From Prototheca cutis (Eukaryota; Chlorophyta; Trebouxiophyceae; Chlorellales; Chlorellaceae): a stretch of 64,000 nt of DNA. Location: contig BCIH01000001.1 in assembly GCA_002897115.2 (NCBI GenBank), forward strand, positions 2,183,057 through 2,247,056, given 5' to 3'. How positions within the stretch are numbered: position 1 is the stretch's first letter; each line of letters starts with the position of its first letter. Positions 2,388 through 40,701 of this stretch are shown one piece after another. A program made the translations under genes and the position numbers. Below the pieces are notes generated by a model, which searched no databases, had not been told where the DNA came from, and was given only the letters and a program-made list of their open reading frames with translations.

Positions 2388-4963
2388 ATGTCCAAGGCTC
2401 CAGAGGTTATCGACACTGGTATGCATGGCTGTTTCTGGGTTAGGAAAGTGCGCACAGCGGGCTGCGCCCGGCAGTGGTTCTGGTTTTTGTTTTTGTGTCC
2501 GGAGGGCTTTGCCTGGGGCTGGGGGATCTGTGCGACGAGAGCGGGCGGCATATGGAAGGACGAGGGCAACGGTCTTTGAGGTCTGCGGGGCCCTTTTGCA
2601 TCGGGCCAGTGCGTCATACGCATCGATTTCATTGTATGTACTGCGTGCACCCCATGATTCTGTAGAAAAGCCCCTAGCCCCTGTGCTCCATCCAAGCCCC
2701 ACCCCCGACCCCCTGACCCTTGCAGTGTGGAAGGCAGCGGCGTACGGCGACTACGAGGTGCTGACACGTCTGGCTGCCGAGGACCCGTCACTGCTACATG
2801 CCCCCGATACGCAGGGCTTTTACGCGCTGCAGTGGGCCGCGCTGAACAACCGTTCGTCGGTGCTGGGCTACCTGCTGAGCTCCGGCTGCGCTGTGGGGGC
2901 TGTCGATGGCTCGGGCCAGACGGCACTGCACTGGGCTGCGGTCCGTGGTGCGAGCGCGGCTGCAGACGCTCTGCTGCGTGCCGGGGCCGATCTCGGTGCT
3001 CGTGACGGCCGTGGGTACACGCCCGTCCACGTGGCTGCTCAGTACGGCCAGGCGGCGGTGTTGCGGGCGTGGGCACTGCGCTGGGGCGCCGACCTGGACG
3101 CCCGCGATGGCGACGGCCGCACACCCCTGCACTGGGCGGCGTACAAAGGCCACGCCGACTGCGTGCGCCTGCTGGCGCTCGCCGGCTGCGACGTCGCGCG
3201 GCCCGACGCCGAGCGATGCACGCCCCTGCACTGGGCGGCCATCCGCGGCCACGCTGAGGCTTGCACTTTGCTGGTACAAGCGGGCGCGGGGGCCTGTCTG
3301 GGCCAGGCCGACGACACGGGCGCCACGCCCAGCCAGCTGGCCGCCGAAAAGGGACACCGCATGCTGGGGCTCAGGCTCGCAGCCGAGCGCGAACGGCACG
3401 AACGCAAGGTCGCTGCAAGTTCGGGTTCTTCTTTGGGACCGGGCGGGGGTGGCTCCACCGTCGGCGGTGGTGGTGGTCACGGTACCGGGACCTGGAGCAT
3501 GAGTAGATTCTGTGGCCAACGACGGTGGCGCAGCCTCGGCATACTGTCAACAATCTGCACGAGATTGGCGGGCCTGCACCTGGCACCTGTGGTCTGGGCC
3601 ATCGTGCTGGGCATGCTGACTGCGCTGGCCCTGCGCGTGACTGGCGCCCCCACCCTCCCGGCCCCATCTCCCGCGGCACTGCTGGGCACGTGGCTGTCGT
3701 TCATCTGCGCATGCACGGGGCTGTACTACCTGATCCGCACCACTTCTGCAGACCCAGGGTTTTTGCCCTGCTTTGCCCCCGGGCGTGGGGTGGCTGGTGG
3801 CTGTGGCGGTGGTATCGGTGTGCGTCACGGCGTACAACATGGGAGCCTGGCCGATGGCAGCGGCAAGCCCGGTTCGCCCGGCCCCCACGATGCGGGCATC
3901 CGCATCCTGGCCGGCGCCGGCGGCGTGCTCGTGGACAAGCAGGGCGCGGTGATTGGCGGCGACAAGGCCGGCGTGGGTGCGGGTGGCGGCGGCAAACGTG
4001 GTGCCTCGCTGCCGGGCACGGCTGGCAGTGTCGCAGACGCTGCCACGGCCCCTCCCACCGATGCGCTGTGTGGCCTCGACTCCCCCGCGCTTGCGGCGGG
4101 GCAGTGGTCACAGATTTGCGTGGCCTGCCGCATCGTCCGGCCGCTGCGCGCCAAGCACTGCGGCGTGACGGGGCGCTGCGTCGAGGTGTTTGACCACTAC
4201 TGCCCTTGGGTGGGCAATGTCATTGGGAAGGGAAATCGCGCCGTGTTCTTGACGTTTCTGTGGCTCGAGCTGGCAGCCATCGTCGCCTCCATGGCCGTCG
4301 CTATTGCACGCTTGCATACCGGTTAGTGGGGGGTTGTTTTGGGGGGGGAGGGGGTGGGGGGGCTGTCCTGTCCACATGTTCCAGTTAACAACGAGCATGT
4401 TGGTTAACAACAGACATGACCGGCTCGTCACGGCCCAGGATCACCATGGGAGGGGCAGCTTGTATACATCTTGGCATAACAAAACCAATGCAATCACCAC
4501 CAAGAACATCACGGAAAAACCACAACCCCTCCTCCTCCTCCTCCTCATCATCATCAATCCCCCCACCACCACACACACACACACAGCGGTGACGGTGAGC
4601 AACGGGCGGCTGGGTGGCTCGCGGTCGACGGCAGCGCTGCTGGCCTGGCCCGTGGGCTTTATTGTGGCTGACGCGTTTCTGCTGCTCAGCGTCGCGGCTC
4701 TGGCATTAGCCCAGGCCAGCCAGGTGGCCAGGAATGTCACAACCAACGAGCTGGCCAACTGGCACCGGTACAAGTACCTCCGGGGACCTGATGGCGAGTT
4801 CCACAACCCCTTTGACCACGGCTGGAAGACCAACTGCGCCGACACGTGCCTCAACCCCCGCGGCGAGCCGGCCGTGTACGTCATCGAGGGTGCTGATGCC
4901 GAGAGCGCCCCCCTCATGCCGGGCCGGGGCGGATCTGGGGCCAAGCTTGCCGCCATGGCGTGA
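2388..4963 (+). CDS. TIP1: Ankyrin-repeat DHHC-type palmitoyltransferase (TIP1/Akr1/HIP14 class)
   Basis: Three exons: 2388-2418, 2726-4321 and 4587-4963, with phase-matched GT-AG introns, give about 667 residues. The chosen ATG yields MSKAPEVIDT running straight into the first ankyrin helix (VWKAAAYGDYEVL), the usual start of this class. Six or so ankyrin repeats (T-P-L-H-W-A-A signatures) fill the first 240 residues. They are followed by membrane helices, a Gly-rich cytosolic loop (about 3770-4080), a Cys-rich catalytic domain (about 4117-4230), two more helices and the TTxE-like motif (VTTNELAN). The enzyme attaches palmitate to cysteines of membrane-associated proteins, probably at Golgi or endosomes. 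The catalytic motif reads DHYC, as in yeast Akr1, and two of the zinc-binding cysteines are replaced (Thr at 4168-4170; Val in NVIG). The catalytic Cys is kept. Confidence 0.9.
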
Positions 4964-7262: not shown

Positions 7263-10200
7263 ATGGCGGCAGCCGGGGCGACCTGCGGGCTGGAGGATGT
7301 GAAGGAGGGCAAGGATTTCAACTTCCCTCAGGAGGAGGAGAAGGTTCTTGCCTTTTGGACGGAGATTGGCGCGTTCAACGCCCAGCTGGAGCGCACCAAG
7401 GACTTTCCACCCTACAGTTTTTACGACGGCCCGCCCTTTGCCACTGGGCTGCCCCACTACGGCCACCTGTTGGCCGGCACGCTCAAGGACATTGTGACGC
7501 GGTACGCCTCGTGCACGGGGCACCACGTGGTGCGACGCTTTGGCTGGGACTGCCATGGCCTGCCTGTGGAGCACGAGATCGACAAGAAGCTGGGCGTCAA
7601 AACGCGCGAAGACGTGCTAAAAATGGGCATTGCCACCTACAACGAAGAGTGCCGAAGCATCGTCATGCGGTACAGCCGTGAGTGGGAGGCCGTTGTCACG
7701 CGCATCGGGCGCTGGATCGATTTTCGCAATGACTACAAGACCATGGACGTATCGTTCATGGAGAGCGTCTGGTACGCCTTCAAGCAGCTCTATGACAAGG
7801 GCCTGGTTTACCGCGGGTTCAAGGTCATGCCCTACTCCACGGGCCTGTCCACGCCGCTGTCGAATTTCGAGGCGGGCCAAAACTATAAAGACGTCAGCGA
7901 TCCCTGGGTCGCCGTCAGTTTTCCATTGATTGAGGACCCCGACAACGCCAGCCTCGTCGCCTGGACCACGACGCCCTGGACTCTGCCATCAAACCTGGCG
8001 CTGTGTGTCCACCCGGAGATGGAGTACGTTCGTGCCCACGACCCCGCTACCGGCCGTGTGTACATCGTGCTGGAGGCCCGCCTGTCCGAGCTCCCCGGCG
8101 CCGTGTCAGCGAAGAAGAAGGGCAAGGCCCCGACGCCCGGGTTTGACATCCTGGCACGGTTCCCGGGCGCTGAGCTGGCGGGCAAGCGCTACGAGCCCCT
8201 GTTCCCTTACTTTGCCCCAATGGCAGACCACGGCGCCTTCCGTGTCACCGTGGACAGCTATGTCACCGCCGACTCGGGCACGGGTGTCGTCCACCAGGCA
8301 CCGGCCTTTGGTGAAGAAGATTACCGCGTCTGCCTTGCTGCAGGTCTGTGTATTGGGGGTAATTGTTCCTCTGTTTTGTTTTATTTTTGTCGTTTTGAGG
8401 AGGGAAGCGGTGGGTGTTATCTTTGTTTTGTTTCTGTCAAACCGCAGAATTCCTTTACCATCTGGCCTGAAACCCAAAACACCGGGATCAAGCAGGCCCA
8501 GCCTCTGCACCAATGTGGTGATGATGAATCAGCTCTAAACAATTTTTCTGACACCTCTAATGTGAGGGGCGTCCAGCTCCACTGAGCAGACGATGCTGAT
8601 ATCTGAACCCTGCGTGCTTTGCTGTGGTGTTTTTTTGGAACCATCCCGGCATTTTGCTCGGAATCATTTTCCATTCCCAGATCTGGAGAGCGCGTGCGCG
8701 CGCGCACACATACACATATGAACACACCGGACCCCGCAGCAGCCGCGTCGCTGATCCGCACAAGCAAGCCCAATCCGTGCAGGTGTGATTGCCAAGGGCG
8801 AGGGCCTGCCCTGTCCCGTGGACGACGCCGGCTGCTTCACCCCCGAAGTCACGGACTTTGCCGGCCAGTATGTCAAGGTATGCTGCTTTGATTCTTGATT
8901 GGTTGTTCATCAGTTGACGAGCGGTTGCAATTTCGTGGGTGGACAGGAGGGGCTCTTGCAGTGGACGTGCATGCATGTATGTACGGAAGATGGCTGGATG
9001 GTGGGAAGGGAATGCCAAACTAGAAATCCAAACCACGTTGATCCTCACACATTCCCTCTTTCTAACCATGCAATAACAACAACAGGAGGCGGACCGGGCG
9101 ATCATCAAGCACTTGAAGGATGCCGGGCGGCTGGTTGACCAGGGTCAACTGGTGCACTCGTACCCTTTCTGCTGGCGTAGCGACACGCCGCTCCTGTACC
9201 GCGCGGTGCCTTCCTGGTTTGTCCGCGTGGAAGAAATCAAGGACCGGCTGCTGGCCAACAACACCAAGACGCGGTGGGTCCCGGCCTTTGTCCAGGAAAA
9301 GCGGTTCCACAACTGGCTGGAGAATGCCCGGGACTGGGCCATCTCGCGCTCCCGGTTCTGGGGCACCCCCCTCCCCATCTGGACCAATGCGGACTTTTCA
9401 GAGGTCGTGGTCATCGGCTCCATCGAAGAGCTGGCGGCGCGAACCGGCGAGCACGTGGAAGACCTGCACCGCCACTTTATCGACCACCTGACCGTCCCTA
9501 GTTCCGATGGCAAGTCAGTCCTGCGCCGCGTGGAGGACGTCTTTGACTGCTGGTTCGAATCTGGGTCCATGCCCTACGCGCAGCAGCACTATCCCTTTGA
9601 GAATGCCGACGTGTTCAAGGCCTCCTTCCCGGCCGATTTCGTCAGCGAAGGCCTGGACCAGACGCGTGGCTGGTTTTACACACTCATGGTGCTGTCCACT
9701 GCGCTGTTTGATGCTCCGGCCTTCAAAAACCTGGTGTGCTCGGGCCTGGTCCTCGCGGCTGACGGCAAGAAGATGTCCAAGCGGCTGAAGAACTACCCCG
9801 ATCCGATGGACGTGGTCAACAAATATGGCGCCGACGCGCTGCGGCTGTACTTGATCAATTCACCGGTTGTCCGAGCCGAGACGCTGAAGTTCCGTGAGGA
9901 CGGCGTTTTCGGCGTCGTCAAGGACGTCTTTCTGCCGTGGTACAATGCCTACCGGTTCCTGGTCCAGAATGTTCATCGTTGGGAGGCCGAGAGTGGCAAG
10001 GCCTTTGACCCCCTTGCCGAACGTGATGCTTCCCTCCAACCAAATGTGCTGGACGAGTGGATCGAGGCGGCTCTCAGGTCGCTGACGGCATTCGTGCACG
10101 CGGAGATGGGAGCGTACCGGCTGTACACCGTCGTCCCGCGCCTGCTGCGCTTTATCGATGATCTGACAAACGTCTACGTGCGTCTGAACCGCGGCCGGCT

Positions 10201-26734: not shown

Positions 26735-27084
26735 GGCACGGTGTGCAAAGGATGTTGGCTGTGGGCTGCCACAGCGCACGGTGACTTCCTTCGATCCAGG
26801 GGCCTGCATGCCCTGAAGGTCCTGGACCCCGAGCTGTAATGGAATTTCATTGAGACTTGTGGAATGCACTGGGCAAGCCGGTATCACAGTGGTTGACCGC
26901 GGCGCTGGCTTCCTGTTACCCCGTGTCCGCCAGGTTCCGGGGCGACCAACAGGCCGATCTCGGGGGCCNCCCCACCTGCCCCGCCGCTTCGGGACGGGAC
27001 GACGGCCTTGAACCTCATCACGGCGGCGATTGCCAGCGACAATGCAGTCTTTGTTCCTCGTTTGCTATTGTGAATCGTAGTGAC
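26735..27084. other. Short intergenic region with an ambiguous base
   Basis: About 350 nt between two plus-strand genes. It holds an N at 26969 next to a G/C run. No gene seen. Confidence 0.45.
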
Positions 27085-28211
27085 ATGATCGAATTGGCGC
27101 CAGAGGAGCGGCGGCATGCCGTGACGGCCGGTGTCTGCTTCGGCAGTCTGCTGCTGTATTACGGGCTCTACTACTGGCGAAGGATCGTCATCGCCAAGCG
27201 CACGACGACCCATATCCGTCGTGCATGGATCCAAGAAACCATGGAATCCCAGGACGACAACATACTTGTGGTGCAGACGATGCGAAACCTCATCATCGCC
27301 GGTGTGTGGGGGTGGGGCCTCTGATGGCTGGGTTAAAGATAGGGTACCTGTGGCAGACTCTCACAAATGGGGATCCCGGGGGCGATGCCGCGTGATCGGC
27401 ACTCCCTGCATCATTAGAACGTGATGGTGGTGCTTTTCATATGCGGATGAGCAGCGGGATGGAGAGGATGCAGGTCACCCCTTAACCTGCCACACTCCTG
27501 GTGGCCCAGCATCGCCACATGAACAAATGCCTCCCTGATCTCTCACTCTTCCCCCCGCCCACCCATCCCCAATGCACATGTGCAGCCACACTGATTGTGA
27601 TGGGGATTGCGCAGATCCTGGGGCGGCTGATCATGGTGCTGACCAAGCCTCCCAAACCGCACCCAGGCAAGCTGATCACGCCCCAGGGGAAAGTGACACT
27701 GGCAGTGGCGGTCCTCTTCTTCTCCATGATCATGCTGGCCTTTAGCGTCCGCCTGGCAGTACACCTGGTGAGCGTTTGCTTTTTTTGGGGGGGGGGGGTT
27801 AGGGGCCCGCCGGGGAGTGAAACACGTGGTAGGGCCCCCCCCTCAACACCACCCTCAGCACCACCGGAACCCCCCACACACACCCACACCACCACGTCGA
27901 CAACACAACAGAGTTTCATGATCCCGCTGAAGAGCCGGATGCGTGAAGCGGGCTGGCTGCGGCGGCGTGCCTCCACGGCCATGGCCCGGTGCACCTGGTT
28001 CTTCTCAGCCGGGCTGCGGCTATTGGTCATGTCGTTTCCTGTGCTGAGCTGGGTGGCCGGGGACGCCTTGCTCATTGTATGCACCATCCTGGTGCTGCTG
28101 CTGACCATGTCCATCGACCGCAGATTTGAAGGCGGGGACGACGACGGCGACATCCTCGATCTCAGGGACCCAGTGGAGATACCCTCGTTCCAGGGGCCCA
28201 TGAGCGCATGA
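27085..28211 (+). CDS. DUF599 family membrane protein
   Basis: Three exons, 27085-27301, 27586-27767 and 27912-28211, phase-consistent, give 232 residues. The protein has four hydrophobic segments: near the N-terminus (CFGSLLLYYGLYYW), at the exon 1/2 junction (IIAATLIVMGIAQILGRLIM), in exon 2 (VAVLFFSMIMLAFSVRLA) and a long one in exon 3 (VMSFPVLSWVAGDALLIVCT). The segment R-R-A-W-I-Q-E-T-M-x-S-Q-D-D-N-I-L-V-V-Q-T-M-R-N before helix 2 and G-K-V-T-L-A before helix 3 match the DUF599 family of plants and bacteria. Its function is not known. The Asp/Gly-rich C-terminal tail is specific to this protein. Intron 2 contains a G12-13 run. Confidence 0.85.
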
Positions 28212-28569
28212 CAAAATTATTGGTGACCTTGTTCTTGATATTTTCTTCCTTTCCTTGATGCACTGGAGAAAGGGGCCATCTTTCTTCTGCGCTGGGGCTG
28301 CTTCTGCTGCGTCTGGCATTTCAGGCAACCACAGCATCAGGACCCTGCAAACTCCTATACTTTGGTGACTCTGTCAAGACGAATACCTCTTTTTTTGGAA
28401 AATGGACAGGCTTGATCTGATGGGTCGATGGGTGAATGGGGGTCTGTCTAGACCATCAGGCACGGGCAGCCACCACACCATCCGCCCGTCCATGCTTGCT
28501 CTTCAAGTTATAACCCCAAGCAGACTCCCAGGTGCAGGCACTCATTCAACATCGCCGCTCGCTCACACT
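28212..28569. other. Convergent intergenic region
   Basis: About 360 nt between the 3' ends of the DUF599 gene (plus) and the TPR gene (minus). No exon seen. Confidence 0.5.
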
Positions 28570-30787
28570 CTAGGTGGGCGGCTTGCGACCCACCTCTTCC
28601 AGTGCCGCATGTACATTGAGGCGGAGTCGCTCGGCGGCTTGCCGCCACCGAGCAGTCGCTGCGGCAGCCGCCGCCGGGACGTCCTCCGCCGCTGCCGCAG
28701 TCGCCATGCCACCAGCGTCTTGGAGCCAGGCATCCAGGCCCGCCACGGTTTCTTCCAGTAGCGCCCGCCCCTCGGCGCTGCGGCCGGCGGCCGCCAGCGC
28801 ACGCGCCAGCGTCGTGGCGCACGCTGCGCCTTCCAGCCGGGCTTGGACGCACGCGTGGCGCCGCGCGAGGCGGTCGAGTTCGCCCGACGGCTTGAGCATG
28901 GTCACGAGCTGGGTCAGAATGCCGGGGTTTTCCAGGTTCCTTTGCACTTTTGCGGCCAGTGCCATTGCCTCCTCCGCATCCCTTAGCGCCGCTGCATGAT
29001 CGGCCTTCGCCTCCCGTGACGATGGCACAGCGCCTTTGTCGCCGCTGCTGCTGCTGCTAACAACAGCATGTGCACCCTGCAGCAGAGCCTCTGCCCGCCG
29101 GCGCAGCGCCGCTGCCAGCGCCACTTGTTCCCGCACGCCAGCCCCCGCGGCCTGTGCCGCACCCCGCCGCGCATCGACCCCGGCCCCCAGCAGCCGTGCC
29201 GCGCGCCGCGGCTGCCCGGCGCTCACCAGCCAATCTGCCAACGACTCGAGCGCCGCCGCATAACTCCCCAGATCCGTCTCCTACGGACGTGCTTGTTTTA
29301 TGTGTGAAACGGGGATGACGAGTTGTGCGCTCAGGCATGCATGTCTGTGTGCTCAGGTACACACCTGTCCACACAAAACCCCAAGCCAGCAACGCAATGG
29401 GCCCCATACAAGAACAGGCAAAACAACTGAATAGACAACAGAATCAATAAACAAGCAGACAACAAAGACCGATCTCAAAAAAATCTTACTGGAGCGTCGC
29501 GGGCGTACGCCAGGATTTCCTCCAGGTGCCCGTCAGCTTCCTCCAGCCGACCCGCCTGGAGCAGCATGGTCGCCAGGCGGCCCCGCCGACGCAGGCTGGC
29601 CGGTGTGACGGCCGCCCCGGGTGCCCCCGCGGCCGCAGCGGTGCGCCGGGCATGGACCAACGCCCGCTCCCGTTCGCCTGCTGTCCAGAGCACCTCGGCC
29701 AGCCGCGCCTCCGAGTTGACCGTCTCCTCGTGCGACGGGCCCAGCGCGCGGCGTTTGACCCCGGCCGAACGCTCGTACAGATCGGCTGCTGCGCGCCAGT
29801 CACCGCGAGCTGCCTGGAGACTGCCAAGATTGTGAAGCGCAAAGGCCACCCTCACGTCCTCGGCGCCATACGCCGCCACCAGCAGCCGCAATGCCTGCGG
29901 GGCTTTGCGGGGCCAATGTAATTTTGTGCAGACATGCAGGCAATCATTGGGCAGTGTGAGTTGTATGGCCGTTCAGCCGTGTTTTGTCAAAATGCATGGG
30001 TTGTTACAGCACCACCCCCAACACGCGGTCGCCAATTGAAAATAGTCCCCATCCTCTAGCCCGCCCCAACCCCAAAAAAGGGACCAACTGACTTCCTGGT
30101 ACAGAGGCTCCGCGGCGGCATAGTCCTTTTGCACGCGATAGAGCTCGGCCAGGTTGTGAATGGCCGAGCCGACGTGGGGGTCATCCGGCCCAAACCCCAC
30201 CCGGGCCATCTCCAGTGCCCTTTTGAGGTACCGCTCTGCCTCCTCTGGTCGGCCCTGCGGGTTATTGGGGGCGACGGCTTTGGCAAATGTGCATAAACAT
30301 TGTAGTATTGGGGCGTCGGGAGGACGTGCACTGCGGCCTTGAGCTGAACTGTGCCAGCAGCATTGGCGGCATGCCACCCACCCACCCGCTGAGGGCACCG
30401 GATCATCCGCCAGCAACAGTCCTCCAACCCAAATGGCGAGCGTCCCCGCCCCTTCCAATGAAAACAACTCATTCCTATTCAAAATCTCTACATCCTGCGC
30501 ACTTGGGCGACAAGATCCCGCCCCATGTCTGTGTACAATCGCCACTGCGCGGTGGCGTCGTTGCCCGGCACGGGAGCTTGGGCTCCCGTGCTCGCCCGGG
30601 GAGGCGGGCTGGCAGCGGGAGCCGGCTGGCTGTCCCCATATGCCACATTCGTAAGCCCAGCGGAGGCCAGCACTGCGCTGGCGACGGCAGCGCCCACTCC
30701 GGGGCGCCATTCCCTCGCGGCAGGGCCAGCAGCCGACACCCGTGTGGCACCCCGAATAAGGAGGCGGCCCAGCTGGGAAAGCATCAT
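28570..30787 (-). CDS. TPR-repeat protein with probable mitochondrial presequence
   Basis: Four exons on the minus strand, 30503-30787, 30093-30254, 29490-29894 and 28570-29280, all phase 0, give 520 residues. The first ATG (30787) yields MMLSQLGRLLIRGATRV, basic and free of acidic residues, which suggests import into mitochondria (or plastids). From exon 2 on come TPRs of the 42-residue kinesin-light-chain/NPHP3 type: GRPEEAERYLKRALEMARVG, then FALHNLGSLQAARGDWRAAA, then LATMLLQAGRLEEADGHLEE. The C-terminal 230 residues continue as Ala-rich helices. TPR arrays bind partner proteins; no catalytic domain is visible. The last intron uses a TAG acceptor. Similar organelle TPR proteins of algae have no assigned function. 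Confidence 0.82.
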
Positions 30788-31634
30788 ATCAAATGGTGCC
30801 AATCAGTAATAACCGTTGAAATAAACACAACTCGTGAGACCGGTTTCTATTCTTGTGCCCGGTATCGCAGGCAATCACAACGATATGATCTCGGGTGCAG
30901 GATCCTCAACAATTCACCAGGACAGCGATCTCTGCGGGTGCCACCGCCGGCGACCACCTCCAAATCTCGCTGCACGCGGCGACGCCAATATACCACCCAT
31001 GAGAACGAGAACAGGGAATTGGAGTGGGGATCGGGCAAACAGCTGGAACCATGCAAGGGAGCGCTGCAGGCACCCCCTGCCCAATTCTGGCGAAAGCGGC
31101 TCACAGGAGCTGTCTGGGGCAGCGTGGCAGTGAGATGACCATTACACCGCAAAGTGTCGGCCCGAGATGCGCCCATGAAGGCAGATCTATGGTCTTTAAG
31201 GTTTGGGATGCGCCCCTGGATCGGGCTTGATTATGAGCACGTCAGGACTGCCAGACGAAGCAGCCAGACAGAGTAGCCAGAAGCCGGACCAGAACGTGGG
31301 CCGGAGGCCGCCGTGAGCATGCCCTTTGGATTGTCTCGCATAGCACAAACGCTAGTTTCATGCGATAATTCAGACGAAACAATCCCAGTGCGCCTCCGGA
31401 CCGGTGCGTAGGCTGTACTAAGTTGTGATCAGGACAGACCGCGGCGCCACGGGTCGCGCGAATCTTGCCCTCCTGCTGCCCCGGACGGACCCGCACGTGC
31501 CGGAGGCGGGCAATAGCCCTGCTATCAACGTGTACTTGAATAACACCTCGCGTCACAAGCTGTAAGGTCTTGCACACGTTGAATTCTTGGATGCAGAGTG
31601 AACAATTGCTTTCTAACTAGCCCGGCCACGCCCG
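30788..31634. other. Divergent intergenic region upstream of the gag-like gene
   Basis: About 850 nt. It should carry promoters of the TPR gene (minus) and of the gag-like gene (plus). I looked for a long terminal repeat matching the region after 33311 and saw none by eye. No other gene seen. Confidence 0.45.
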
Positions 31635-33311
31635 ATGTCCGTTTCGGGAGCGATGGTCGCGAGCTCCAGACTCTCCCTGCCCAATGCAGCCCCTAGGCGC
31701 CTGCACCCTCCTGCTTACAGGCAGCTTCCCGAGCCCTTTTTCCGGGTCTTTATGGCAGATGGCGGCGAGGACGTTTCCGCCTGGCTAAAGGATCTGGAGG
31801 CCGCGCTGGAGGAGGCCGGGACGACATGGGATTCCGGCACCATTGCCCAGGCCATGCAATGCCTCAAGGGCCTTCCCAATTGGTGGGCCAACGCCTGGAT
31901 ACGGGCCATCCCCAAGACCCTGCAGACATGGCAGACCTTTCGCAGCGACTTTGAGCACAGGTTCAGGGTCTTGCCGTCCGGGCCCCAGGAAAGCCTCGCG
32001 GCGCAAGGCTTTGGAAGCCAGGACAATACCGGGGCGGCAGCTGGAGAAGCCGACGGCCAGGTGGCTGCTCATGGAGACGACAGCGTGGACCCAGCACAGA
32101 GGGACATCAATGGTGTCCCGGAGGGAAACGGAGCCAGCGACCCCGGCGCAGTCTCAGCCGGCGGTCCACGCCGCCGGCCACCGCCACCTCCCCGCGCACA
32201 CCCCGACATCGACCCCTCACTGTGCCAGACAGGGAGCGTCGAAGACTATGTCGCCCGCTTCCGCGCGGCTGCAGCAGACTGGGAGGCCACCGACTGGCAG
32301 CTGCGCGACCGGTTTTACTCGGGTCTGCGCCTGCGCCTCCAGCGCAGCATGCCCGTCCGCACCGCCCCCAGCCTGGACTGCATGACCGCCGCGGCACTTG
32401 CGGTTTCCGAGAGCGGCGGCGCCGGTAGTCGTGGTAGCGTGGGCCCGCGGCAGGGCGTTTCTGCGGCAGGTGCACCCCCCCGAGGTCCCCNCCCCGGGCG
32501 GCGCAGCGAGAGCGGCCCGCTTCCCCGCGCTCCCCCCCAGCACGCGTCTCATCATGCACTTCCGATGCAGTACTACCACGGTGGGCAGCCGACGCAGTAC
32601 TGCCATGGTGGACCAACATCATCGTTCATCAACGGCCAGGCAGCACACTACAACACCAGCGGACAAGCGCCACTTTGCCGGACGGGGTCGGACAGCTCCT
32701 CACGCAGCGGTAGCCGGCCGGGCAGCGACTGCGCCGTGCCGCTGCACATGCCAGGGCCCTCGCCGCCCGCCGCCCGCCCGCAGCAGGCGGCGGTGCCACG
32801 CACAGGGCCTGGCGTGGCACCACATGCGCTGCGCCCCGTGGATGTGCTGTGTCTTCAGAGCTCGCCGGAAGCCGAGGACGAGCTGCGGCCGCGGAGACTG
32901 GGACCCGAGGAGTGTTCCGGCGCAGTAGCCGCTGCAGCCGCCGCGCCCACTACAGTGGCCTGGATCCAGGGATGGCCCGTGGCGTGCCTGGTCGCCAGCC
33001 AGGCGGACAGCTGTCTCATCGATCAGGACCTCGCCGCACGGCTCGATTTGACCCTGGAACCCTGCAGACGGGCTGTCGCCTGGGACGGGCGTGGCGGCAG
33101 GGGGAGTGCAGGCGGCGCCGGTGCTGGCGCTGGCGCACCTGCAGCGCAGGCGGGGCACCGTGCGGAAACCACCCCGGCTGCCGGCGTGGCCAGGGAAGTG
33201 CCGGTGGTCGTGCAGGGCAAGTCATGGGCCGTCAGCTTTGTAGTGGCACCGTTGGGCATGCCGCTGGCGGTGCTGGGCCAGCCCTGGATCAACACCATGC
33301 TCGCCGGGTGA
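31635..33311 (+). CDS. Gag/retropepsin-like protein, probably a domesticated Ty3-type retrotransposon gene
   Basis: One uninterrupted frame of 558 codons (one ambiguous base at 32491). Residues about 45-115 and 200-262 together match the retrotransposon gag domain: VSAWLKDLEAALEE, GLPNWWANAWIRAI, TFRSDFEHRFRVL, then VEDYVARFRAAAADWEATD and FYSGLRLRLQRSM. An 85-residue low-complexity insert separates the two halves. After a Pro/Gly/Ser-rich linker, residues about 435-558 have the retropepsin order: GWPVACLV, ARLDLTLEP, EVPVVVQGKSWAVSFVVAPL, VLGQPWI. The catalytic D-S/T-G is replaced: the frame reads CLVASQADSCLI, with ASQ at 32994-33002. No CCHC knuckle, reverse transcriptase, RNase H or integrase follows before the stop. 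The closest analogy is animal gag-derived genes, which keep capsid and a dead protease fold. An ATG at 31752 (MADGGEDVSAW) is an alternative start. Confidence 0.8.
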   Translation: MSVSGAMVASSRLSLPNAAPRRLHPPAYRQLPEPFFRVFMADGGEDVSAWLKDLEAALEEAGTTWDSGTIAQAMQCLKGLPNWWANAWIRAIPKTLQTWQTFRSDFEHRFRVLPSGPQESLAAQGFGSQDNTGAAAGEADGQVAAHGDDSVDPAQRDINGVPEGNGASDPGAVSAGGPRRRPPPPPRAHPDIDPSLCQTGSVEDYVARFRAAAADWEATDWQLRDRFYSGLRLRLQRSMPVRTAPSLDCMTAAALAVSESGGAGSRGSVGPRQGVSAAGAPPRGPXPGRRSESGPLPRAPPQHASHHALPMQYYHGGQPTQYCHGGPTSSFINGQAAHYNTSGQAPLCRTGSDSSSRSGSRPGSDCAVPLHMPGPSPPAARPQQAAVPRTGPGVAPHALRPVDVLCLQSSPEAEDELRPRRLGPEECSGAVAAAAAAPTTVAWIQGWPVACLVASQADSCLIDQDLAARLDLTLEPCRRAVAWDGRGGRGSAGGAGAGAGAPAAQAGHRAETTPAAGVAREVPVVVQGKSWAVSFVVAPLGMPLAVLGQPWINTMLAG

Positions 33312-33862
33312 GCCAAGAGAGCCGGGGCGCGACCATCCAAGCCACGGCTCGACCCCTCGAGAGTCCCCCATCTTTTCTTCACATCGTAACCTGGCACCGC
33401 CACAACACACTTCACCATTGTCAATTCATTACACGAAACTGTTCCCGGCATGCTACGGTTGTACTGGCTGGAAGGACCAGCCACCCATGTCTTGTAGCCG
33501 GCGGCTGCGGCTGTGACCCGCCGCATTCCATGTTCTTTGCATTGAAACGAAACATGCTGTGCCTTTGAAGAACTGTGCTTCTCCTACCTTTCAGGCTCCA
33601 TCGGCACGCATGGCGCGCTCCCATACCTTGCCTTTTTCCAATGCCCTCCCCCCTGGCCCCTGTTCTCTCGGATGTCCTGATTCCCAGCAATTGGCTGGGC
33701 ACGTGATTTCTCTCGTCTGGCCCCTGGTGCGGCAGAGCCGATGTGCTCGCACTACATTGTCAAGGCCGAGTGTTTCAAAAACCCCAGAGGCGTTTTACAG
33801 GTTCATGGGACCTGGCGTCATGTAGTCTAGTGCAGGAAGAGGGACCTCGATCGATACCGGAC
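33312..33862. other. Intergenic region after the gag-like gene
   Basis: About 550 nt with stops in all frames. No remnant of reverse transcriptase, RNase H or integrase and no terminal repeat is visible, which matters for reading the preceding gene as isolated. Confidence 0.5.
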
Positions 33863-35656
33863 ATGGGGAGGCAGAGTCTCGGGACACTCGCGGTCACGGC
33901 CGCCCTGGCCTCCTCTGCAACCTTGGTGCGTCAAGGGTTACCATCGTCGTTGATTATATGAGTGATACATTGGTCTGTGGTGTTGGCATGAGCATCCCGG
34001 GGCTGGATGCGTTGGTGGCCCAATGTATTGCTAGTCCATATTGATGGGGGGGCCAGAGCCTCCCATTCTTCATGGTGATGGCTCCCATGGTGGTGAAACC
34101 CCATGTTGACCTCATGCGCGCACAGGTGACGGTGTGGCTGCTGTCAAGGCGGCGTGGCACAAAGACCAAGGGAGCACAGGAGGGCGATGGGCGCTGCATC
34201 AGGGACGGCCTGCTGGGTCTGATAGGCAACACACCCCTGGTCCGGATCAAGAGCCTGTCCGAAGCCACGGGCTGCGAGGTGGGCCATTATCTGGAATTTT
34301 TTGGGTTCTTTCTTGACAGCTGCTTGGGTTTTGCATGGCAACACAGGCATGCGAGGACAGCAGACAACGCCTTGGCGAGCATGCACCCCAGCAACAGCAA
34401 TGATATCAACAGACATCACGCACACACACGAACATGTCAACCCCCCCCCCCCCCNCCTTTCCAANCAATCAATCAATGATTAGATTCTTGCCAAGGCGGA
34501 GATGCTCAACCCTGGCGGGTCGGTGAAGGATCGTGTGGCGGCGCAGATCCTCCGTGAGGCGCTGGCATCCGGCGCGCTGGGCCCGGGGGGTCTTGTGGCC
34601 GAAGGCACGTCTGGGTCCACGGGCATTTCGCTGGCACTGTGCGCCCGTGCAGCTGGCGCGAGGGCCTTTGTGGCGTTGCCGGACGACGCCGCGGCGGAGA
34701 AAGCTGCCACGTTGCGGGCGGTCGGGGCTGACGTGAGGACCGTGCGCCCCGTGTCCATCACACACCCAGAACACTTTGTCAACGTGGCGCGTCGCGCGGC
34801 GGCCGAGGCGCCCAGCTCTGGCCTGTTTGCCGACCAGTTTGAAAACCTGGCCAATTTCAGGGCGCACCTGGCCACCGGGCGGGAGATCCTGGCACAGACG
34901 GGGGCCAGACTGGACGCCTTTGTCTCCGGTGCGGGCACAGGCGGCACCATTGCAGGAGTGTCAACCGCCCTCAAGTCTGCTGACCCCTCCATCCAAGTCT
35001 TCCTGGTGGATCCCCAGGGCAGCAGCCTGTTCAACAAGGTACGCTTCGGATGTCCGGGGGTTGGGTGCGTACTGGGGGGCAAGGCGCCCGCCAGAACTGG
35101 GCACCTGTCCTGCCAAAGGCAGCTCTGCACCAGGACGTTTTATTGCTTGTCTGATCTACCAGTGATCGGCGACCAGCCGACCCAAGCTTGCATCTCCCAC
35201 GATAACATAAAGGTGACACGGGGGGTGACGTTCACAAGGGAAGAAGCAGAGGGCCGGCGGCTGCGCCACCCGACCGACACGATCCTGGAGGGCGTGGGCC
35301 TGAATCGGCTCACGGCGAATTTTGCTCGGGCGCGACTGGACGGCGCGTGGCCCTGCTCGGATGCTGAGGCTGTGGAAATGGCGGGATATTTGTTAAGAAA
35401 CGATGGGCTGTTTGTCGGGTCATCGGCGGCGCTGAACTGTGTCGGTGCCGTGAAGGCCGCTCGGCGGCTGGGACCGGGGGCTACTGTCGTCACCGTGTTG
35501 TGTGATGGTGGGGCGAGACACCTGTCTCGCTTTCACAACCCCGAGTTTCTAGAGCGAGAAGGACTCACCCCAAAGGCTCAGGGCACTGCGCTGGATTTCG
35601 TCGCCCAAGGGGGATTCAAACCCGCCCTGCACCGGGGGGGCCGTGTCCAAGTCTAG
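33863..35656 (+). CDS. Membrane-anchored cysteine synthase (O-acetylserine sulfhydrylase family)
   Basis: Four exons: 33863-33925, 34126-34278, 34484-35038 and 35213-35656, all phase 0, giving 404 residues. Exons 1 and 2 join into a hydrophobic stretch (LAVTAALASSATLVTVWLL) followed by RRR, a typical N-terminal membrane anchor. The fold type II PLP enzyme follows: IGNTPLVRIKSLSEATGCE, the PLP lysine in NPGGSVKDR (about residue 87), the substrate loop EGTSGSTGISLA, the PLP-phosphate loop SGAGTGGT and the distal serine motif GSSAALN. Known relatives with an N-terminal helix are the fungal and algal 'cysteine synthase 2' proteins, found at the mitochondrial outer membrane in yeast. The enzyme would make cysteine from O-acetylserine, though activity of that subgroup is uncertain. 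Intron 2 ends in a C-run with N bases (34455, 34465). Confidence 0.9.
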
Positions 35657-36131
35657 GAGGGGGTTCGGAATCTGAGGATGCAGCACATCAAATCTTCTGG
35701 TTCCTTTTGTGGTTCGGCTCCCACCATCCGCTGTGTGATATTTGATTGGGCCACCTCTCATGTTGTGGTTTGCCCCCCCCCCCCAACCCCCAACCCCCTG
35801 CCTGTCTGGACTGGAGTGATTGCAGCAGAAGATTACAATATCACATCATCATCATGCACACTCGCTCGCGAAAATGCGTTCCTCCACGGAAACAAATGGC
35901 CACAACAAAAGAAATCTCGGCCAGCACAGTCAAACTGACATGGGGTAGGACGCAGCACCATAAAAATGCAGTGCGGGTTTTCTTGTTTGGAAACAGTGAA
36001 TTGCCTGGTGCCCTCCGGAGTGCACATGTGGATGGATGGGTGAACACGCGCTCAAGACCATAATCTCAAGAAAGAAAGAAAGAAAGAAAAGAAACAGACC
36101 CCGCAACCAACGGACAAATCTCCCAGCCTTT
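35657..36131. other. Convergent intergenic region
   Basis: About 475 nt between the cysteine synthase 3' end (plus) and the reductase 3' end (minus). It holds a C10 run (35776-35785) and an (AAAG)n tract near 36070-36092. No gene seen. Confidence 0.5.
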
Positions 36132-37182
36132 TCAGTAGCCTCGCTCCCGGTCAATGTATTGACCGGGGTGCAGTTCGCGGCCAGCATCAAGTGCCAGGAG
36201 GTTGTCTCGCATCTGTTGCACCCCTTGGACAGCATTCAGGGTGGCAGCAATGTGCGGAAACACTCTGACCTTGGGATGGCTCCACAGCGGGGAGTCAGCG
36301 GGCAGGGGTTCCCGGTCAAAAACATCGAGCACCGCAGCCGAGAGATGACCCGCATCCAGGGCTCGGAGCAGATCGGCTTCGACAACATGTTCGCCCCGGC
36401 CGACGTTGATCACCAGGCCGCCAGGTGGCATGATCTCAAATAATGAGCCACACAGCACCCCGCGTGTGGCCGGCGTAAGCGGTAACAAGCAAACGAGAGC
36501 GTCAGACTCACGCGCCATGTCCTTGAGTCCCTCGCTGCCGCAAAAGTAGCGCACCCCGGGAATCAGACCGTTGGTGCGTGCGGAGCGGGTCCACCCGGCG
36601 ACGGGGTACCCCGCCGCCACCAGCAGGCGTGCCGTGGCTTCTCCCATCTTGCCCATTCCCAGCAGGCCCACTCTGACCGTCTCATTATCGCGGATCACAA
36701 AGTTCTCGATGGCCTTGTCCCACCGCGCCTCCCGCTCTGCCGCCGCATAGTCGTCGCTGCAGGGTGGTAGTGGGGGGGGGGGGGGGGGGGGGGNGTTAGT
36801 CATNGGCAATGGGACCCGACCAACAACAAGCAAGCAGACAAAGACAAACACATGCACACCATTTGCGCTGCCAATTGATGAGTGCCCAAAGTGAAAATGT
36901 GGCGATGCGCTGGGCGACTCTGGGATCGATGATGCGGATGATTGGGACGCCCGGCGGGCAGACGTCCGGCTGCAGCATGGCTTCCGTGACGCCGGCGCCC
37001 ATGCACTGCACGGCACGCAGGTTTGGGCAGGCGGGGAGCAGGCCACGCTCTGGGTTATAGGACACAGCGTATCGCACCCGGGTCAAATCAGTGCCGGGGC
37101 CGGCCTGGCAAGCTCTAAAGCCCTGCTCTTCCAGCAATCGACACCAAAAATCCACGAAGTCCTTTTGCCCGAAATCTGGCAT
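36132..37182 (-). CDS. ghrA: Glyoxylate/hydroxypyruvate reductase, GhrA type
   Basis: Two exons, 36860-37182 and 36132-36756, phase 2, give 315 residues, close to the 312 of E. coli GhrA. The protein belongs to the D-isomer 2-hydroxyacid dehydrogenases: an N-terminal domain with VQCMGAGVTEAML, the Rossmann signature GLLGMGKMGEATARLL and the three catalytic residues Arg (NVGRGEHVVE), Glu (DVFDREPLP) and His (VFPHIAA). The ending, Q-Y-I-D-R-E-R-G-Y, is that of the GhrA group (VDRARGY in E. coli). It would reduce glyoxylate and hydroxypyruvate with NADPH. In an alga this would fit the photorespiratory pathway or its clean-up. The GhrA resemblance suggests a bacterial origin, but introns show it is settled in the nuclear genome. 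The single intron contains a G-run of about 25 with N bases at 36794 and 36804. Confidence 0.92.
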
Positions 37183-38223
37183 AAATTATGAGAGGTGTGG
37201 GGTTGTGCTAGGTGGATTGGGAAGGTCGAGGGCATGGTACGGCAAGGGCAGGGTATCCAAAGGAGAGCACAACAGGACTCACTCCATGCTTCACCGACCA
37301 GACTCCGGCGGGACACAGAGATGCGCAGTGATCACCAGCATTGCAACCCATCTGTCAGACCCTAACATACTATATTATGAAACCCACGCTTGATCAGCCG
37401 GCCGCTCACCAGTGGCTACCAAAACGGTATAATCATCGGCGGCTGGCCCCTCGTGACCTGCTTCGTCGATGCTCGCGGCTTGCTCATTCACCATCTTTGG
37501 CACACTTACCAGTGCGTAAGCTTGGTTGCAGTCACTGAAACCTCTTTAAAAAATGTGACGTCAAGGTCCAAGAGGGTTTCCTGCTGCCAATTCACAACAT
37601 GCGAAGACCGCGCGGGCCGGGTGACGTCATGGGTTACTGTGCCGTCAGCATTGGGAAATGCACGAAGCAGCAGTGGAAATGACAGGCTCTCATCCCGCAC
37701 ATTACTGGTAATTCACTGCGATTTTGGTGCGAGGATACAGATTCCTCATCAAGGGGATCGGTTGGGCTTCTCCACCCACCGTGAGCGGGATTCTCCGAAA
37801 CCCTAGCGGATGAGGGTTCTGGGACCGCTGGCAGTCAAAGAGGGGCAAGACCTTCGATCCGCCCGCTCCTTCGCTCCAGGCATGAAAATCCAGCTTGTCA
37901 GGCCATGATACAGGGCTCACTTGTGCCTCGCATTACAAACTGAATCCGTCCCAATTTGGGACTACTTGGGAGTCTCAGCTGGGCAGAGGCATGTAGGTGG
38001 GATGGAAACAGTGTCCTATGCACTCTGGTCGGATGGGACAACAGACAAGACCCAGCTCAACATCGGCTTTCCAGAAAATGTAATTCCAACATAGCTCCTG
38101 TGTGGACCAGAAATCGCACGGCGTAACCTCCCCTGCCTGAATGAGGTCTGTGGGCGCACAGTTTCCCTGGAGCTACCTGAGGTTTACCATGCGGCCGAGC
38201 AAAGCTGGCGGACCTGGTGGACA
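37183..38223. other. Intergenic, about 1 kb, no gene seen
   Basis: AT-richer stretch between two minus-strand genes: upstream of the reductase start and downstream of the RING gene stop. The short open frames are not convincing and I recognise nothing in them. An upstream exon of the reductase cannot be excluded. Confidence 0.45.
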
Positions 38224-39551
38224 TCACAGGTAGAGCAGTTCGGCATGGCTGATGGCGTTCTGGGCTCCCTTTTGCGCCTCGGCCTCGATTTTCTCTCGCT
38301 CATATCGTGAATCGTCCGTGGGAAGCTCGTGCCTGAATGTTTTTTGGGGGGGGGACCGGGGACAGACACATTATCAATCATCGCTGCCATATCGGCACTG
38401 CAGTCATGTAAATAGGGTGCCAAGTCCACCACCTTGGGCAGCTCTACTGGGCCCATGTTCTGCACTGGGGGAAGCCAGCCAGCCGTGGGTCGCCCCCATG
38501 CAACCCTAGTACACCCAAGGCGCACCTGCATATGGGACAGGAATTGTGTTTCTGCAGCCAGGGCGCGAGGCATGGCACATGCAGGACGTGGCCACAAGGC
38601 AGCTTCTGCACGACTTCCCCGGGTTGCAGCTCTTCCCTGTGAGTTGGGTCAGTTGAGTGAGGGCAGGGTCGCAAGGTCGATGACAAGTGTCCTGCAGGCA
38701 CTCGGCGACAGGGAGTACCATAGTCCCCATGGCACAATTCCACATTGGCCCCCATCAAAGAGCCCAGCACTGGCCTTGGCCCGTCAACCCCCTTCCCTCC
38801 CCCTGGTTTATCAAACCCCTGCGCTCTCCCTCAGCAACTTCAACAATCACCACTAGCTCTTCCCCCAGCGCACACACATGCAGATGGTGCAAGCTGTTTC
38901 CGGCCCAAATTCTGTATCGGTTCCTGGCTTGGGCACGATGTGCCTTGGAAGGCGCTCCACGATGGCTCTGGAAGCCGGAGGCGCAGCCGATGCTGCCGGA
39001 ATGGCTGCTGCCGACTCTTCCAGCGCCCGAAGTAACTGCTCGTCGAGGAGTTCCACGGGTGTGCCAGCTGACAAGGGCGTTTCGGTGCCATTCGAGCCGG
39101 TGGTCACGGCCGCAACAAGCGCGGCCAACAGTTCTTGCGCGGCTGGTTCCTCCACTCTGGGAGCCTCTGCAGTGGACAGCTGTCCCTGGAAGCTGTAGGG
39201 CGGTGGTGCCACGCCGGCCAGGGTGGGCTCCTCGCATTCTGTGCTGACGGCCAGCTGCGCTTGGCAGTCCTCGATCCAGCCCTTTAGCCGCCCAGCCAGG
39301 GCATCTACGGGACAGCACGCCGCGGTCTGGAGGTACAGATCTCGCGCTGCGTTCCAGTAGGCGGGCGTGTTGTACCTGCTGCGGAGCAGGGCGTGGCACC
39401 GGGCCAGGAGCCTGGTAAACGCTTCCTCCTCGACCGCCCGCCCGCCCGAGTCATTTAAATACTCTCGCAGCGCGGCGACACCTCGTTCAAAAGTCGCTTT
39501 CTTCTCCAGAAGCGCCTTGATGTCGGGCAGGGAGGTGGTCGACACGGCCAT
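38224..39551 (-). CDS. AIP2: RING-H2 E3 ubiquitin ligase, AIP2-like
   Basis: Three exons on the minus strand: 38878-39551, 38526-38636 and 38224-38332, phases matched, giving 297 residues starting MAVSTTSLPDIKALLEKKAT. The N-terminal 200 residues are helical and Ala/Glu-rich. A conserved lead-in (RLPRHIVPKPGTDTEFGPE) precedes a complete RING-H2 finger: CTIC at the exon 1/2 junction, CGHVLHVPC and SCPIC. The last exon then gives RHELPTDDSRYER and an acidic helix ending in the Y-L terminus, which is the hallmark of plant AIP2 (ABI3-interacting protein 2) and its animal relatives of the RNF181/RNF126 kind. It transfers ubiquitin to unknown targets. Assignment to the AIP2 group rests on the HELPTDD block after the finger. 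Intron 2 starts close to a G9-12 run. Confidence 0.88.
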
Positions 39552-40701
39552 TGGAAGCCTCTCGAACCGAAGACCCCCCCTGTCTCCCCGAGTTGGATCT
39601 AGGCAATGCCAGACAGAACAACAGTGTTCATAATGGGTATGAATAGAACAGTTTTGATGATGCGTGCCCGTTGTATGCGGAGGGCATGACGCTGTGGTCG
39701 TTCCACCACATGTGATCGCGGGGAGAGCTTCTGTGGCTGGCCAGCAGTTTCTCCGGTGGACATACCAGTCATCAGAATGGACCAGTGCTCCTAGGATAGT
39801 CTCTACATAACCAAACTGCTCTATCATGTAGCTTGTAGGAGATTTATAGATGTCGAAATGGTCAGCAAGTTTGTCGCTGCCGCGGTGCGCGCTTCTGGCC
39901 GCAACTCTAGCAGCTCGCCGCCGCCCCGAAAAGGCGGCGTACCAGGGCCCGGCCAGGAGTCTCTCGCCCGCTCAAACATTGGCATGCTTCTGGGTGTTAC
40001 GAACGATTCTGGTCTACTGTCCCGTCGTTAATTTGGTTGTACTGCCGTAATGAGGTTACGCCGACGCCCCATCTCAAACTGAACCATGTGCGTTTGCGCT
40101 GCATCGGTTGCAGAACGACGTCATGGGCAAAGGAAGCTTGGACACCGGTCCGATACATTGTCCAGCAGGCTGCAGAACCTTTCATGTGGCATTCAAATCC
40201 GTTGGTAAAAAAGGTTTGGCAAAGTCACCTGCATTCCCTGCACGACGGTGAATGCGCCCAGGGGAGGCCACGGGATGTGGGAGACCGTGCAACCAAACAC
40301 ATCTGGGATGGAAGGACAATGTTTCTGTCCGGTGCTGGCCAGGAGACACAGTCTTGTGCATTGGTCATGAACACCTGTGATGGGTCTATAATTCCTTGGG
40401 AACTGATGAGTAGCAGCTGGCGGAATGGGCAACAGGGTGCCCCGCGACACCTTCCACAGGAAGCCGCTGTCATGCAGGTGGGCTGAGCCTATCGAGAGAT
40501 CAGATCTGGGCAAGTGCGGGACCAGTGATCGCCATGCTTCCCTGGCACACGGACGAATTGCGCATAAGATCTACGTCTAGGGGATTGCTCCTATCACAAA
40601 TGTCCGGCCATGAGTCCCGGCATGGCGGGCACAGGGCCGCGCTGACTCCGGGTGGCAAGTGATCTTTGGGTCCCGGGGTGAGTCCCCCGCTGTCCCTCCC
40701 G
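39552..40701. other. Divergent intergenic region, about 1.15 kb, no gene seen
   Basis: Between the RING gene (minus) and SEC15 (plus). No exon, RNA gene or repeat that I can support; promoters of both genes should be here. Confidence 0.45.

Follow-up and report, generated by a model that had tools for sequence, protein, structure and literature searches.

Does the gag-like and retropepsin-like fusion ORF at 31635..33311 belong to the alga or to a retrotransposon? The ORF lies on the forward strand of the 64-kb window, by which we mean the whole stretch of DNA analysed, and reads as one frame of 558 codons plus TGA from an ATG at 31635, with the coordinates and length originally predicted for it. 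We see about an even chance that it is a single-copy gag-derived host gene. Domestication is plausible but unproven, and in our judgement it is better supported than plain decay.

The frame runs stop-to-stop from 31617 to 33311, encodes a product of 558 amino acids, and contains neither an internal intron nor a recognised host domain. Work on P. wickerhamii reports introns in 97.4% of genes (PMC7941945); should the present genome resemble that one, few host genes would be expected to lack introns as this frame does. The locus sits in a 2.47-Mb contig between an upstream TPR-like gene on the reverse strand (matched by Pfam only weakly, at 11.8 bits) and a downstream gene for a PLP-dependent enzyme on the forward strand (Pfam PALP, 185 bits). 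Just 5' of the ATG, GTAAGG ... CTAACTAG (31562-31620) resembles an intron and possibly lies in the 5' untranslated region. An upstream exon joined through this 59-base interval, from the donor-like GTAAGG at 31562 to CTAACTAG ending at 31620, was rejected: by hand count its frame fails to join the ORF, and the interval would therefore be at most a 5' untranslated intron. The ORF itself contains a single N at 32491, in a C-rich run, and its capsid and protease parts share one frame only if this N represents one nucleotide. The window (1-64000) holds 109 N bases, with single Ns in C runs, for example near 32491 and 34455, which suggests unresolved homopolymers in the assembly.

The N-terminal half of a Ty3/Arc-type capsid domain occupies residues 28-116 (31716..31982, forward strand, as are all features of the ORF) and has a W..WW..W..F pattern. 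The C-terminal half covers residues 191-262 (32205..32420) and is marked by QTGSVEDYVARF...FYSGLR. Alignment and composition delimit a Pro/Gly/Ala-rich stretch between the halves (residues 117-190, 31983..32204). Pfam Retrotrans_gag scored 24.7 bits on residues 196-232 of the whole protein, which passes the cut-off of 24.1 and places the domain among Ty3/Metaviridae gag (capsid) domains. The same model gave 27.5 bits for residues 28-262 alone, above the cut-off, and 20.5 bits for the C-terminal half alone (residues 191-262), below it. Pfam Ty3_capsid remained under its cut-off of 29.1, with 17 bits on residues 50-111 of the whole protein and 21.6 bits for residues 28-116 alone. Our own gag profile, built from 57 of 120 proteins, gave 16.1 bits for the N-terminal half and 17.8 bits for the C-terminal half, compared with at most 9.0 bits in 600 shuffles. 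The two gag-domain halves first proposed for this frame are thus both present.

We aligned the window capsid piece with 11 Ty3 Gags (alignment A2). Positions F9, W23, W56, W57 and W72 of the residue 28-116 piece are invariant in all 12 rows, and the window piece is 16-21% identical to the other Gags. Residues 117-190 hold an insert of 63-67 columns that is absent from all 11 aligned relatives. An alternative alignment (A1), in which the C-terminal capsid half was scattered into the reverse transcriptase (RT) region, was dropped. A profile of A2, with the window piece included, matched dArc1, dArc2, Arc, PEG10 and Ty3 chains in the PDB; at the level of sequence, these matches show family membership and not the fold of the window protein. 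The single ORF as a PDB sequence query returned one irrelevant match (E 2.1). The single-lobe entries 6sib (8-86), 7lga (84-168) and 6sid (92-169) put the lobe boundary at about profile position 84-92, and the insert, as aligned, therefore falls just past this boundary. Single-sequence AlphaFold models had low confidence for both the capsid part (mean pLDDT 43.1) and the protease part (42.4), and so we make no structural statement from them.

A Pro/Gly/Ser-rich linker (residues 263-411, 32421..32867), which includes the N at 32491 and has no in-frame coding bias, separates the capsid domain from the protease part; there is no CCHC zinc knuckle in the ORF. The retropepsin-like domain spans residues 436-556 (32940..33302), as placed by our own protease profile and the register of A-S-Q, and a Gly/Ala-rich stretch at about residues 483-516 breaks it in two. 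The profile, for which 47 Ty3 protease fragments were drawn from a set of 120 proteins, gave 19.7 bits for residues 411-558 and 14.5 bits for the whole ORF, whereas 500 shuffles yielded at most 1.8 bits. The match consists of two collinear blocks, residues 444-480 and 513-554. A-S-Q (GCC AGC CAG, 32994..33002) stands in register with D-S-G, where the catalytic D-S/T-G is expected, and LGQPWI (33273..33290) aligns with the late LGxxWL element of the profile. The retropepsin-like domain, its ASQ triplet and its retained late element thus all bear out the original prediction. The frame stops six codons past LGQPWI, and the last strand of the protease part may therefore be missing. Homology to retropepsins, with both blocks in order, comes from our own profile; the Pfam models fell below their cut-offs, and the match to gag-asp_proteas (14.8 bits, E 0.044, residues 435-558, cut-off 28.2) is only suggestive. 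A weak alignment with the DTG protease of a Ty3 element resident in the same genome (22% identity over 118 columns, E 0.24) has the same register. With A-S-Q in place of D-S/T-G, the domain does not class as an active retropepsin.

We found no other parts of a retrotransposon beside the ORF. Zinc-knuckle, YxDD-like and D[ST]GA motifs were absent from all six frames of 27000-40000, and neither the motif scan nor tblastn revealed RT, RNase H or integrase in this interval, so the locus does not qualify as an autonomous Ty3 retrotransposon. Among 70 tblastn matches at E<=1, 30 lie inside the ORF in frame; of the remainder, several protease matches overrun the ORF stop and others are scattered on both strands, the best of the scattered ones with an E of 0.009 on the opposite strand. 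No direct repeats of at least 60 bases occur in the 64-kb window, and the three two-copy repeat families seen in 29000-37000, 20-25 bases long, resemble chance matches. The LTR of the resident element has no match beside the ORF. Paired LTRs are thus absent among the repeats detectable, and the locus does not class as an LTR element, although strongly diverged terminal repeats may surround the ORF. The scan, tblastn and the repeat search all agree with the earlier claim that pol, zinc knuckle and terminal repeats are missing here.

The genome (19,886,974 bases in 23 contigs) was searched for further copies, with counts that are lower bounds. The ORF was found once, as was the stretch 30601-34000. 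Many near-identical copies with terminal repeats and pol, the pattern that had been set against domestication from the outset, were not found. Ty3_capsid matched two places, the window ORF and a decayed remnant on contig C9. Retrotrans_gag matched the C9 remnant only; it missed the window ORF itself, which means that the first look of that search was not sensitive. The RVP_2 search gave zero matches, its controls included, and is uninformative. A genome search for a chlorophyll-binding protein, whose control did match, also found none. In this one genome, the ORF has the make-up expected of a domesticated gag gene, a single copy without element parts beside it.

The resident element and the C9 remnant provide a standard of comparison. 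The former is a Ty3 chromovirus on the reverse strand of contig C10 (G000:C10:202734-207032; locus L006 3232-7533, LTRs 2938-3207 and 7505-7796). It appears complete, with DTG protease, zinc knuckle, RT, RNase H, integrase, chromodomain and LTRs. Its LTR pair aligns over 292 columns with 0 mismatches and one 22-column gap; because the LTRs differ by this gap only, the insertion is probably young. Genome searches with RT, rve and H2C2 each hit one place, in every case within the C10 element, though such family searches miss decayed pieces like those at C9. The whole C10 protein as a genome query matched only itself. C10 Gag has no match to Pfam gag models and no detectable similarity to the window Gag. 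The C10 LTR matches 30 pieces genome-wide, its own two included. The 28 further pieces (loci L036-L043 and others) are 71-97% identical to it and some adjoin each other; 21 of them span only the first 70-123 bases of the LTR, and the pieces represent solo LTRs, trimmed ones or a small repeat related to them. The C9 remnant (G000:C9:593544-594825; locus L005 4045-5326, reverse strand), found by the gag searches and tblastn, has a gag ORF, a stop, a zinc knuckle and then integrase-region pieces in a shifted frame, with no RT in the stretch listed. Since tblastn recovers the gag, zinc-knuckle and integrase-region pieces at C9, this locus is a positive control for the empty surroundings of the window ORF.

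An open frame alone is weak evidence of selection here, because stops are rare at the 69% GC of the ORF. Stops number 5, 5, 6, 10 and 11 in the five remaining frames of this stretch. Second-order Markov sequences with the composition of the ORF produced a frame of 564 codons or longer in all 100 runs of 64 kb, and those with the composition of the window did so in 3 of 100. Codon usage carries more information. Twenty 10-kb stretches supplied 172 long ORFs, of which 53 served to train a codon model; it gave in-frame biases of 0.211 and 0.220 bits per codon for the capsid halves and 0.133 for the protease part, and two neighbouring enzyme ORFs scored 0.171 and 0.126. In each capsid half, and over the protease part taken as one, none of the five alternative frames scores as high as the correct one, which ranks first of the six in 15 of 21 sliding windows. 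Bias drops below zero in residues 1-27 (-0.099), the 149-residue linker (-0.055) and the insert of the protease part (-0.012), and in block 436-482 an opposite-strand frame (0.127) outscores the true one (0.098). GC3 reaches 0.80 and 0.83 in the two halves of the capsid and 0.76 in the protease part; it is 0.64 in the first linker, 0.71 in the second and 0.74 over the whole ORF, whose flanks have a GC content of 0.57-0.61. By comparison, GC3 is 0.79 in the young C10 element, and in the decayed C9 gag it is 0.57 over the whole ORF and 0.54 in the later part.

The strongest competitor to a host gene is an unselected, truncated Ty3 remnant that is still open by chance, its pol and LTRs having been deleted in one or a few events. 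We regard this reading as possible, but less probable than domestication. It draws on the low-complexity linkers with little or no coding bias, on the scattered LTR pieces and the one RT-less gag remnant elsewhere in the genome, and on the failure of protein-database searches to recover an orthologue. The frame could also have escaped stops by chance: only about 2.9% of substitutions in the ORF are nonsense, and the probability of no nonsense change is 0.38 at 0.02 substitutions per site. The catalytic triplet is harder to reconcile with this account, because A-S-Q lies at least three base changes from D-S/T-G by hand count, yet there are zero stops elsewhere. At 0.05 substitutions per site, the probability of no nonsense is 0.088 and that of at least three changes in the nine catalytic bases is 0.008; at 0.1 per site, the corresponding values are 0.008 and 0.053. 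Seven divergences were computed, and at none of them are both outcomes likely. With frameshifts added, at 0.05 indels per substitution and two thirds of them shifting, the probability of an intact frame is 0.005 at 0.05 substitutions per site and 3e-5 at 0.1. Under these simple neutral assumptions (equal rates, a D-S/T-G ancestor and no multi-base event), loss of the catalytic triplet without any stop would be unlikely. Three further points count against a remnant: no LTR trace was found at the locus although LTR pieces survive elsewhere in the genome, the codon bias does not resemble that of the decayed gag at C9, and identity to the 11 Gags of A2 is only 16-21%.

The neutral calculation fits selection on a host gene and selection on a non-autonomous element alike. 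The locus could also be read as a TR-GAG-like element with one copy, whose Gag is selected for element function in trans and whose terminal repeats have disappeared or diverged beyond recognition. Plants are reported to have elements of this type, some of them able to mobilise (PMC9784723). Such an origin would account for an intact gag next to a dead protease, and the young autonomous C10 element is a possible helper. We nevertheless think it improbable: 29000-37000 holds no convincing terminal repeats, the genome has no second copy of the ORF or its flanks, and the window Gag lacks similarity to the Gag of the would-be helper. That a GC-rich frame was misread as gag-protease, or that the fusion is an assembly artefact at the ambiguous base, is very improbable and already largely refuted: 564-codon frames do arise readily at this composition and there is one N at 32491, but each capsid half and the protease part beat all shuffles in the right order and the same frame, Retrotrans_gag exceeds its Pfam cut-off, and the locus adjoins an ordinary enzyme gene within a megabase-scale contig.

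Database searches returned no relatives of the ORF. A search of a 5.8-billion-protein database, which contains NCBI, UniRef and EukProt entries but may lack Prototheca or Auxenochlorella, scored 7989 candidates against the ORF with none at E<=1, and residues 28-116 gave 28 candidates with none at E<=10. Viral contigs scanned with the ORF also yielded nothing. No co-opted algal gag gene appears among the literature matches listed, which is compatible with the initial statement that no algal case had been described but is weak evidence of absence. A Cymbomonas paper deals with domestication of other viral genes, not gag (PMC10675990).

We return to the host-gene reading, for which the original argument from an open frame with a dead protease holds in part: the open frame counts for little, and the case rests instead on the single copy, the unique flanks, the lack of pol or LTRs alongside, the codon bias, the contrast with C9 and the loss of the catalytic triplet in a frame that acquired no stop. 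An old Ty3-type gag-protease segment would have lost its LTRs, zinc knuckle and pol, its protease would have died, and the frame would have been kept open because the protein is still useful to the cell. We infer that the ORF is transcribed, translated and under selection. Its product may most likely act as a self-associating, capsid-like scaffold, in which the two capsid halves would supply oligomerisation, their coupling made looser by the long insert. The protease-like domain would be unable to process the protein and would persist as an inert module, folded or serving interaction. Given domestication, interference with Ty3 Gag assembly might, by analogy with DRT2 and Ty1', have a probability of about one third; the lack of similarity between C10 Gag and the window Gag argues against interference through co-assembly with the C10 element. 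The fullest version of the proposal, a first gag-pseudoprotease host gene in a chlorophyte, captured by a colourless alga poor in transposons, whose product forms or blocks capsids and has a dead structural or interaction module for a protease and lobes split by a long flexible insert, is unlikely to hold in every part.

Captured gag genes are already known in yeast and land plants, and those of animals have been studied in depth. Arc is one such gene (PMC6525542), and the animal Arc/dArc, PEG10 and RTL genes, which derive from Metaviridae gag or gag-protease, share the two-lobed Ty3-type capsid domain with the window ORF. PEG10 and RTL3 are reported to have the same CA-PR architecture (PMC11011659). 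However, the PEG10 protease is described as needed in the mouse placenta, whereas the ORF has lost its triad, and unlike in Arc and PEG10 its capsid domain is split by the insert of 63-67 columns. In Saccharomyces, DRT2 is likewise a gag-derived frame in a type of genome with related elements; it stems from Ty1' GAG, contains the capsid C-terminal domain, and has demonstrated Ty1' restriction (PMC10951436). The window ORF differs in being of Ty3 type, in having both halves and in lacking similarity to the resident Gag. Within the green lineage, HadGAG1-3 of sunflower and Ctrg10 (Wang and Han 2021) are described as gag-derived genes outside LTR elements (PMC9784723). According to the same source, the HadGAG genes encode fusions to host proteins, have 4-10 exons and occur as homologues in further plant species. 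The window ORF, in contrast, is an intron-free frame in which no host domain was recognised and for which the searches returned no homologue. The HadGAG2 homologues are also reported to carry a Copia-type GAG domain (PMC9784723), whereas that of the ORF is of Ty3 type. The C10 chromovirus is of Ty3 type too, with its protease in the same register, but it looks complete and its Gag is not similar.

If the host-gene reading is true, the organisms in which capsid genes were turned to cellular use would come to include a unicellular green alga. This small genome offers a built-in comparison in the young Ty3 element and the decayed gag remnant, one of each, that it also holds.
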